Shown in pieces: positions 31,904-34,285 of a stretch of 64,000 bases of DNA. The notes beneath the pieces are model-generated. The model was not told the DNA's origin, did no database searches, and was given only the letters and a program-made list of their open reading frames with translations. The DNA is from Streptomyces hydrogenans (lineage in GTDB: Bacteria > Actinomycetota > Actinomycetes > Streptomycetales > Streptomycetaceae). Numbering within the stretch: the stretch's first letter is position 1; each line of letters opens with the position of its first letter. The translations under genes were made by a program, and so were the position numbers. The stretch spans positions 1 through 64,000 of the forward strand of contig NZ_BNBS01000032.1 of assembly GCF_014656075.1 (NCBI RefSeq), written 5' to 3'.

Positions 31904-34138
31904 TCAGGCCCGCCGGACGATCCCGAGCCGCTGGGTGGCCCGGGTCAGCGCCACGTACAGGTCGTTCGTGCCGTGCGGGGCGCCGGCCCGGATGCAGTCC
32001 GGGTCGACGACGAGGACCGTGTCGAACTCCAGCCCCTTCGCCTGGCGGGGGTCGAGGAGGACCACCGGCCGGGTCAGGTCGGGCTTCGGCCCGTACGAGG
32101 CGTCGGGGAGGGCCGCGACCAGGTCGGGGAGCAGCTCCGCCGGGGCGATCACCGCGAGCCGGCCCTCGGCGCCCGCCTCGGCCGCGACGGCGTCGGCCGC
32201 CTCCTTCACCGGGTCCTCGACGGTGCGGTCCCACGGCTCGACGCCGGTGGAGCGGACCGAGCCGGGCGGTTCGAAGGAGGGGTCGTCCGCCCGGCGCACG
32301 GCGGCGGCGACCGCCATGATCTCGGCGGGCGTGCGGTAGTTGACCCCGAGCCGCACGTGCTGCCAGCGGTCCTCCACGTACGGGGCCAGGATCGCGTCCC
32401 AGGCGCCGACGCCGGCCGGGTCGCCGGTCTGCGCCGGGTCGCCGACCAGGGTCATGGAGCGGGTGGGGCTGCGGCGCATGAGCAGGCGCCACTGCATGGC
32501 GGACAGCTCCTGGGCCTCGTCGACGATGATGTGGCCGAAGGCCCAGGTGCGGTCCGCGGCGGCCCGCTCGGCGGCGGTGCGGTGGTCGACCTCCTCCTGC
32601 CGCTCGGCGAACCGCTCGGCGTCGATGATGTCGTGCGCGGACAACACCTCGGAGGCGTCCTCGTCCAGCTCCTCCTTGTCCTCGAACTCGTAGGTGCGGG
32701 AGGCGAAGGAGACGTCGAGGACGCCCTGCGCGTACTGCACCTGGCGCTGCCGCTCGGCCTCCTGGGCGGCGCGGGCGGCGGAGTCGTCGTGGCCGAGGAG
32801 TTCGGCGGCCTCGTCGAGGAGCGGCACGTCGCCCGGGGTCCAGGGGCCGCCGTCGCGGCGGATCGCGGCGGCATCCTCCTCGGGGAGGTGGGTGGGCTCG
32901 GCGAGGTAGCCGGCGAGGAGGTCCTCGGGGGTGAGTTCGGGCCAGAGGTCGTCGATGGCGGCGTGCACGTCGGGGTTGGCGGCGATGCCCTTGGCGAGCA
33001 GGGCGATGTCGTCGGGGCCGAGGAAGTTGGGGCCGCCGTACGGGTCGGCGCCGATCCGGTCGGCGAGCTGCGCGGCGAGCGCGTCGAGGATCCGGAAGGC
33101 GAAGTAGGGGCGGGCGAGGTTGTGCGGGAGCGCCGTCTCGCGGGCCTTGTGGCGGGCCTCCAGGGCCATGTCCCAGTCGATGACGAGGTCGCCGTCCTCG
33201 TGCGGGACGACCAGCGGCGCCCCGCGCTCGGGGACCTGCTGCCGGTCGCGTACGGCCTCCGCCAGCGCGGCGGCCATCCGGACGTCGCCCTTCACGGAGG
33301 CGGCGCGGGGGGTGTCGGCGCCGGTGGCGCGGACTCCCGGGTACAGCTCGCCGGGGGTGGCGAGGAGGACGCCGGTCTCGCCGAGCGAGGGCAGCACGTT
33401 GCCGATGTAGCCGAGGAAGGCCGGGTTGGGGCCCACGATGAGGACGGCCCGCTTGGCGAGCTGCTCGCGGTGGGCGTAGAGGAGGTAGGCGGCGCGGTGC
33501 AGGGCGACGGCGGTCTTGCCGGTGCCGGGGCCGCCCTCGACGACGAGGACGCCGCGGTGCGGGGTGCGGATGATGGCGTCCTGCTCCGCCTGGATGGTCT
33601 GCACGATGTCGTGCATCCGGCCGGTGCGGGCGGCGTCGAGCGCGGCGAGCAGTACCTCGTCGGCGTCCCGGCCCTCGTGGCCGGAGCGGCTGCGGTCGGC
33701 GAGGTCCAGGACCTCGTCGTGGAGCGAGACGACCTCGCGGCCCCGGGTGGTGATGTGCCGGCGGCGGGTGAGGCCCATGGGCTCGTGGCCGGTGGCGAGG
33801 TAGAAGGGGCGGGCGACCTCGGCGCGCCAGTCGACGACCAGCGGGGTGCGCCGGGGGTCGTCCTCGCGCAGTCCGATGCGCCCGATGTGGTGGTCGCGGC
33901 CGTCCCGGAAGACGAGCCGGCCGAAGCAGAGCCCGGTCTCGCCGGCGTTGAACGCGGCGAGCAGCCCCGACTGCTCGGCGACCATGATGTCCCGCTCCAG
34001 ACGGGACTGGGCGCTCCCGGTCCCGGGGGTCTGGAGCGCCTCTCCGACGGCGGCCTCGGCCCGGTCCCTCAGGTCGTCGAGCCGCGCGTAGAGCGAGGTG
34101 ATGAATTTCTGCTCGTCCCGAATTGGCTCGGTTGACAA
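31904..34138 (-). CDS. helD: HelD-family RNA polymerase-associated helicase-like ATPase
   Basis: 744-residue UvrD/Rep-like protein of the actinobacterial HelD type. An N-terminal helical arm (1-60) is thought in the family to enter the RNA polymerase secondary channel. Walker A GGPGTGKT has Lys208, Walker B is HIIVDEAQELS, motif III is TLVGDPAQTGDP, with LGVNYRTPAEI and C-terminal YVALTRATQRLGI. Family members release RNA polymerase from stalled complexes, and HelR relatives protect it from rifamycins. I saw no rifamycin-associated inverted element upstream. The start is TTG at 34138 with TGGGAGT six nt before it; a rightward promoter overlaps this start. Confidence 0.9.
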   Translation of the reverse strand: MSTEPIRDEQKFITSLYARLDDLRDRAEAAVGEALQTPGTGSAQSRLERDIMVAEQSGLLAAFNAGETGLCFGRLVFRDGRDHHIGRIGLREDDPRRTPLVVDWRAEVARPFYLATGHEPMGLTRRRHITTRGREVVSLHDEVLDLADRSRSGHEGRDADEVLLAALDAARTGRMHDIVQTIQAEQDAIIRTPHRGVLVVEGGPGTGKTAVALHRAAYLLYAHREQLAKRAVLIVGPNPAFLGYIGNVLPSLGETGVLLATPGELYPGVRATGADTPRAASVKGDVRMAAALAEAVRDRQQVPERGAPLVVPHEDGDLVIDWDMALEARHKARETALPHNLARPYFAFRILDALAAQLADRIGADPYGGPNFLGPDDIALLAKGIAANPDVHAAIDDLWPELTPEDLLAGYLAEPTHLPEEDAAAIRRDGGPWTPGDVPLLDEAAELLGHDDSAARAAQEAERQRQVQYAQGVLDVSFASRTYEFEDKEELDEDASEVLSAHDIIDAERFAERQEEVDHRTAAERAAADRTWAFGHIIVDEAQELSAMQWRLLMRRSPTRSMTLVGDPAQTGDPAGVGAWDAILAPYVEDRWQHVRLGVNYRTPAEIMAVAAAVRRADDPSFEPPGSVRSTGVEPWDRTVEDPVKEAADAVAAEAGAEGRLAVIAPAELLPDLVAALPDASYGPKPDLTRPVVLLDPRQAKGLEFDTVLVVDPDCIRAGAPHGTNDLYVALTRATQRLGIVRRA

Positions 34139-34161
34139 TTCGACTCCCAGCGCGATACAGT
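34132..34161 (+). promoter_or_regulatory. Canonical sigma70-type promoter reading away from helD
   Basis: TTGACA (34132-34137), 18-bp spacer, TACAGT (34156-34161) on the plus strand. The -35 is a perfect consensus, rare in this genome. It overlaps the TTG start of helD on the other strand. Start of transcription is expected at 34168-34169. Confidence 0.7.
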
Positions 34162-34167
34162 GCCTTT

Positions 34168-34285
34168 AGTGAAATACTCCGTACATTCACTTGAACAAGG
34201 CAGAACATAAGCCTCGGACAAGCACACGGAATTCACCAATATAGGCGCCGCACCACCCCGACTGTCAATTCGGTCGGGGTTTTTT
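34168..34285 (+). ncRNA. Candidate ~118-nt small transcript with a leaderless 13-codon ORF
   Basis: Bounded by the promoter at 34132-34161 and the intrinsic terminator at 34256-34285. Its 5' end coincides with GTG at 34169, which opens a 13-codon frame (VKYSVHSLEQGRT, stop TAA at 34208-34210). The product could be a leader peptide, a microprotein, or simply a small RNA. The segment is noticeably AT-richer than its surroundings. No tRNA, tmRNA or known riboswitch pattern was recognised. Its position over the helD promoter suggests transcriptional interference or antisense control of helD. Confidence 0.5.
34256..34285 (+). terminator. Classical rho-independent terminator
   Basis: CCCCGAC/GTCGGGG stem (34256-34262 with 34273-34279), extended by a G-U and a C-G pair to a 6-nt loop, then six Ts (34280-34285) on the plus strand. 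It is the only hairpin plus T-tract in the window, and no conventional gene on this strand ends here. Confidence 0.85.

Follow-up and report, generated by a model that had tools for sequence, protein, structure and literature searches.

Why would a short transcription unit begin at the very start codon of a helD gene and run away from it? The question was raised by a locus in Streptomyces hydrogenans (genome of 9.0 Mb), lying in a 64-kb stretch of DNA that was analysed as a whole (hereafter, the window). An earlier note on this DNA, made from its sequence, had described a rightward promoter, a leaderless micro-ORF and an intrinsic terminator on the strand opposite helD, and had proposed that the unit controls helD by interference or antisense, or else encodes a small peptide or RNA. 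Our analysis points, with a probability of about 0.6, to interference between convergent promoters as a switch for a helD of the actinobacterial (Class II) type. In addition to the antisense promoter (P-anti), we identified a likely helD promoter (P-sense), which went unseen in the earlier note and which makes the unit a predicted convergent pair. The features of the locus are the following:

31904-34138, minus strand: helD, 744 aa, actinobacterial HelD/HelR-like (profile scores)
34136-34148, minus strand: helD start codon TTG (34138-34136) and Shine-Dalgarno GGGAG (34148-34144), both within P-anti
34132-34161, plus strand: P-anti, TTGACA-N18-TACAGT, directed away from helD (motif and conservation)
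34168-34285, plus strand: predicted antisense RNA (as-helD), ~118 nt (start from -10 spacing; fold z -3.87)
34139-34232, minus strand: predicted helD 5' leader, ~94 nt, with a 5'-terminal hairpin (inferred start; fold z -2.11)
34238-34268, minus strand: P-sense, predicted helD promoter, -35 TTGACA (34268-34263), 19-bp spacer, -10 TATATT (34243-34238)
34255-34285, plus strand: intrinsic terminator of as-helD, its loop containing the P-sense -35 (folding and compensatory changes)

At full length, the helD product scored 643 bits against the HelD_MYCSM profile, 712 bits against HelR_2 and 120 bits against HelD_BACSU, the first two values being below the NCBIfam curated cut-offs (1051 and 1100, respectively). 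Among the best 80 named matches, the closest helD genes were from Streptomyces in 79 cases and from Microtetraspora in one. Judging by size, numbering and glgB neighbourhood, we take SVEN_5092 and SCO5439 to be its orthologues in S. venezuelae and S. coelicolor.

A conserved antisense promoter includes the helD start codon

P-anti consists of TTGACA (34132-34137), an 18-bp spacer and TACAGT (34156-34161), with A34168 located seven bases past the -10, and thus has the letters and coordinates originally described. Its overlap with the helD start was likewise borne out: its -35 is formed, on the opposite strand, by the first two helD codons (start codon TTG, then TCA). P-anti is the sole TTGACA-N16-18-TANNNT on either strand of the 64 kb (0.025 expected per strand), and the T6 run that ends the unit is also unique on both strands (0.15 expected per strand); these expectations, taken from 40 first-order Markov sequences, rule out a chance origin of the two. 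Rarity, claimed in the earlier note for perfect -35 elements and T-tract terminators, holds for the full promoter and the T6 run but not for TTGACA by itself, which occurs once on the plus and four times on the minus strand, with 3.4 expected per strand. When a 12-kb region was scanned for stand-alone elements, we found one promoter-like site versus 0.2 expected, and one terminator-like site versus 1.8 expected, the latter being not above chance. The 154-bp unit is indeed AT-richer than its surroundings, with a GC content of 49.4% versus 73.3% for the window, a value equally low in 0.03% of 154-bp windows.

Conservation was examined in helD start regions from 221 unique loci, 88 of them recruited by DNA match and 133 by protein match. 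Because recruitment by DNA match, used for the earliest loci, carries a selection bias, the main count was made on the protein-recruited ones. TTGACA-N17/18-TANNNT was kept at 125 of these 133 loci, and at 87 of the 88 DNA-recruited loci. Seven of the eight protein-recruited misses belong to another family of the order and exhibit TTGACA-N18-CAGAAT or CAGACT instead, the eighth is L201, which is misplaced and lacks its N-terminus, and the single DNA-recruited miss (L147, of a third family) exhibits TTGACA-N18-TAGAAC.

For the detailed P-anti counts, L201 was removed, as were L092 and L156, in which no helD was found. The -10 came in 35 forms, with TACAGT in 85/212, and each fits TANNNT because the search required it. 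The -35 stood in the helD reading frame in 210/212 loci, even with a longer or shorter N-terminus, and the helD start codon within it was TTG in 210/212 and ATG in 2/212. Codon 2 was TCA, which accounts for 24 of 1190 Ser codons over helD codons 11-195; its presence at codon 2 follows from TTGACA having been required. The informative figure is the presence of TTGACA at the helD start in 220 of the 221 loci, the exception being L201. An A was found at the seventh base past the P-anti -10 in 165/207 loci (L149-L161 excluded), and it is on this base that the predicted start of as-helD is placed.

The antisense unit ends in a conserved terminator-like hairpin

The hairpin with which the unit had been said to end was found as described, its stem at 34255-34280 and its T6 run at 34280-34285. 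Since chance alone would supply a terminator-like site in 12 kb, the case for a terminator rests on its conservation. Folding of 199 unique sequences (L149-L161 and duplicates excluded) returned a stem of at least 7 pairs with at least 4 T in 8 bases, past the sense -10, in 166 of them, with a median z of -4.75 versus mononucleotide shuffles. Moreover, 171 stems that could be anchored at their base exhibited coordinated changes at pair 6 (G-C or A-T), pair 7 (C-G, A-T or G-C) and pair 8 (C-G, T-A or G-C). Folding was used in place of an earlier scan for perfect stems, which overlooked imperfect ones and gave 159/220, with single shuffles giving 33 and the reverse strand 86. Terminator-like hairpins ahead of P-sense were found at only 3/206 loci.

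In the relatives, the predicted length of as-helD has a median of 97 nt, calculated from the 144/199 loci with a placeable T tract, the 55 loci with no measurable tract being outside this median. An alignment across relatives, proposed in the earlier note as a check, upheld the promoter and the hairpin and not the frame: across 33 aligned sequences, conservation covered the -35 and -10 of P-anti, the terminator and the block AATATA, and the micro-ORF region was variable. In the same alignment, the letters of a candidate BldD-like repeat at the start of as-helD were not kept.

A likely helD promoter faces P-anti

Read on the helD strand, the block AATATA (34238-34243) is TATATT and the loop of the terminator, TGTCAA (34263-34268), is TTGACA; at a 19-bp spacing, they constitute the likely helD promoter, P-sense, whose transcript would start leftward near 34231, as judged from the position of the -10. 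A sense -10 was called in 211 of 212 loci. TATATT was exact in 188/211, the best -35 lay at 19 bp in 167/211, and this -35 was TTGACG or TTGACA in 135/211, counts that lean this way because the score favoured these letters, AATATA among them. As a joint pattern, TTGACA-N17/18-TANNNT-N45-75-AATATA was present in 83/101 genomes of the genus, once per genome, and in 0/101 with the reversed control; many of the 83 sites coincide with helD places found by DNA or protein match. The window falls outside this pattern by a single base (a gap of 76 versus N45-75). Searches across the genus with a 30-base pattern (40/392 genomes) and a 301-base BLAST query (187/392), understate the conservation, as divergent loci found by protein match still carry the promoter.

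The region between the promoters tends to harbor an inverted repeat. After removal of short or duplicate middles, the best stem was at or above the 95th percentile of mononucleotide shuffles in 102/209 loci, with 91 different 5' arms. In many of 30 cases the 3' arm of the repeat ended at the predicted helD start, which would put a hairpin at the 5' end of the helD mRNA; the window's own helD leader folds with such an opening hairpin.

The distance between the promoters changes mostly in near-helical steps

Across the 211 loci, a median gap of 52 separated the two -10 elements, corresponding to a predicted distance of 40 bp from start to start, counting both. By the same rule, the window copy measures 64 bp, with a gap of 76, and is thus a long variant compared with the typical 40; a distance near 39 bp is held by the family median and not by the window copy. 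Gaps over 193 loci fell into classes of 49-55 (144 loci), 59-65 (37) and 72-78 (10), with single values of 87 and 91.

We then mapped gap changes on a rough tree built on at most 585 nt of helD sequence, loci with fewer than 120 helD codons having been excluded to leave these 193. Among 30 inferred changes of at least 5 bp, 19 were of 10-13 bp and 5 of 23-25 bp, the remainder being of 6, 7, 8, 9, 14 and 39 bp. In a Rayleigh test, p was ~1e-5 with 11.5 bp and 2e-4 with 10.5 bp as the period, which was examined post hoc; it is not sharply set, since the fit was still climbing at 12.5, where the tested range ended. Two polymerases that need to stand in a fixed relation to one another would be expected to give such steps of 10-13 or 23-25 bp (24/30). 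A bias in insertion size may be an alternative source of such steps.

The geometry resembles a rifampicin alarm of Bacillus subtilis

A two-promoter rifampicin alarm at helD is already known from B. subtilis, as described in January 2026: there, a convergent antisense promoter of greater strength keeps helD low until sub-inhibitory rifampicin releases it (Sudzinova et al. 2026, PMC12802891). In that system the starts are 39 bp apart, the antisense RNA is ~94 nt and the antisense spacer is 19 (or 18) bp. Mutation of the antisense -10 raised helD and abolished its induction by rifampicin, and induction was also lost with a 17-bp deletion or a rifampicin-resistant polymerase (PMC12802891). The pair in Streptomyces shares with this one the helD gene, a leader with facing sigma-70-type promoters, long promoter spacers, a start distance of ~40 (predicted, versus 39), an antisense RNA of ~97 nt (predicted, versus ~94) and an intrinsic terminator. 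It differs in that B. subtilis has a Class I HelD whereas the gene here is of the actinobacterial type, and in that the 19-bp spacer belongs here to the sense promoter, the antisense one having 18. Furthermore, unlike in B. subtilis, the helD start codon doubles as the antisense -35, and terminator and sense -35 overlap. Opposed promoters with a short overlap, one repressing the other, are also named in PMC12802891 for phage 186 and Shigella icsA, with other genes and signals. The genome search reported there discarded promoter pairs overlapping another annotated region, and a pair whose -35 is a start codon may have dropped out of it.

To Actinobacteria, the same authors ascribe a different control, stating that genes of this kind, helD included, feature the RAE (PMC12802891), a 19-bp palindrome in the 5' region that governs helR, also a helD-family gene, and other rifamycin genes (PMC8655204, PMC10719064, PMC12802891). 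Searching the host genome with an RAE sequence (at most 3 mismatches), we found two best places, each with one mismatch. The first (G000:C107:5723-5741, L255) lies upstream of a 38%-identical helD paralogue, which is helR (1218 bits, cut-off 750), and the second (G000:C126:13375-13393, L256) upstream of a rifampin monooxygenase gene (820 bits, cut-off 800). Only these two placed hits carry weight, as total matches numbered 10 versus 29 in the reversed control. They point to a separate rifamycin regulon in the same genome. Under the same search, the helD start segments of the window's kind contained no RAE (0/221), the window's included.

SVEN_5092 and SCO5439 are listed as HelD genes by Larsen et al. 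(PMC8655204), who report that all four helD genes of S. coelicolor, SCO5439 among them, are expressed without drug, with ~2-fold changes by growth phase, indicating that the gene is not tightly silent. The same paper, citing Surette et al., states that rifampicin induces just one of five helD genes in S. venezuelae, SVEN_6029, which has an RAE, and this counts against a rifampicin response of the window helD. The SCO5439 transcript is lowered in LAL regulator mutants (PMC3282765). In a WhiA ChIP-seq study of S. venezuelae, the untagged control gave a single peak, located upstream of sven5092, which the authors excluded from their data (PMC3781837); a site crowded with polymerase would be in keeping with such a peak. 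Neither SCO5438/5439 nor SVEN 5092/5093 is named in the main text of a survey of antisense RNAs in three species. We found no earlier description of facing helD promoters in Streptomyces in a search that mostly covered literature outside subscription.

Interference between the promoters and its alternatives

We propose the following course of events. Both promoters would fire, P-anti driving a short antisense RNA across P-sense that ends at the terminator overlapping the P-sense -35. Polymerase leaving P-anti would cross the start and -10 of P-sense, displacing or blocking the polymerase there, and helD would be kept low, P-sense being presumably slow, as expected from its 19-bp spacer. If initiation at P-anti were arrested, whether by a rifamycin-type inhibitor, a stalled polymerase or a low level of the initiating nucleotide, interference would lift and helD would be made. 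Control of helD by interference or antisense, as proposed at the outset, is plausible given the conserved -35, -10 and stem at the helD start, and the arrangement is the one in which the Bacillus data demonstrate interference. Transcription itself is more likely to be the agent than RNA pairing, because as-helD starts upstream of the Shine-Dalgarno and leaves it uncovered.

Alternatively, as-helD could act as an RNA, pairing with the first ~60 nt of the helD mRNA and altering how stable it is or how it is processed, while collision of polymerases would matter little. From one start to the other the two transcripts overlap throughout, and both fold into hairpins there; the inverted repeat preserves its pairing but not its letters. 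Yet as-helD stops short of both the Shine-Dalgarno and the start codon, the strongest conservation lies in the promoters, outside the RNA body, and the spacing changes in near-helical steps; we thus regard this explanation as unlikely. A slightly smaller chance still goes to the idea that P-anti and the terminator mainly insulate helD or remodel the local DNA, with P-anti firing but not regulating P-sense. An intrinsic, efficient-looking terminator would suit insulation, which nevertheless leaves unexplained why TTGACA-N18 is kept at the start codon, why the distance to P-sense is kept and why this distance changes stepwise. A small RNA acting in trans, e.g., as a binder of RNA polymerase, is very improbable: the ~118 nt are compact and stably folded, but the sequence between the promoters, and with it the RNA body, is not conserved, the best Rfam match had an E of 3.3, far under the gathering score, and the available text of an S. 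coelicolor RNA-polymerase RIP-seq paper names scr3559 and scr0792 only. Least credible is the leaderless 13-residue peptide gene of the earlier note, whose GTG (34169-34171, at +2) does open a 13-codon frame in the window, but whose start codon and frame are not conserved, with ATG, GTG or TTG within ~2 bases of the predicted start in 87/207 loci, GTG in 19, and frames ranging from 1 to 111 codons.

Returning to interference, what the switch would respond to is a more tentative matter. That the helD promoter pair senses inhibitors of RNA polymerase is conceivable from the likeness to B. subtilis, and we hold it at less than even odds. With similar reserve, we suggest that the non-RAE helD of Streptomyces and some other actinomycetes may be under a facing-promoter sensor of blocked polymerase, either arisen independently of that of Bacillus or inherited in common with it. 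The promoter distance would vary in roughly helical-turn steps (11.5-12 bp), so that polymerases would have to meet on set faces of the DNA, and the signal in producers could be any polymerase inhibitor or their own stalled polymerase, beside RAE/helR and with no sensor protein involved. A near-identical geometry at an actinobacterial-type helD, predicted at nearly every Streptomyces locus examined, would, if the reading is true, imply either a greater age for the mechanism than has been supposed or more than one origin, and would equip antibiotic producers to detect a blocked RNA polymerase with no sensor protein. The spacings that occur in nature form a series ready for testing interference by colliding polymerases.

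Occurrence in other families

Relatives of helD were found in 157/197 genomes of the class. Following exclusion of 15/54 loci from other families that had no helD alignment, 39 were usable. Scoring at 9 of 12 positions identified no sense promoter among them (0/39), and no antisense promoter was found at 28/39. The other 11/39 had a 9-of-12 promoter directed away from helD near its start, versus 0/39 in single shuffles, and at three loci of one genus TTGACA-N18-TAAAAT or TACAAT lay at the identical place. At a locus from another family of the class (L282), a hairpin and T6 run come right after the antisense promoter, before any helD promoter, such that the antisense RNA there may be only ~45 nt. 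Loci of the f3 family, e.g., L149 and L150, exhibit TTGACA-N18-CAGAAT at the helD start, followed downstream by hairpins unlike the Streptomyces ones.
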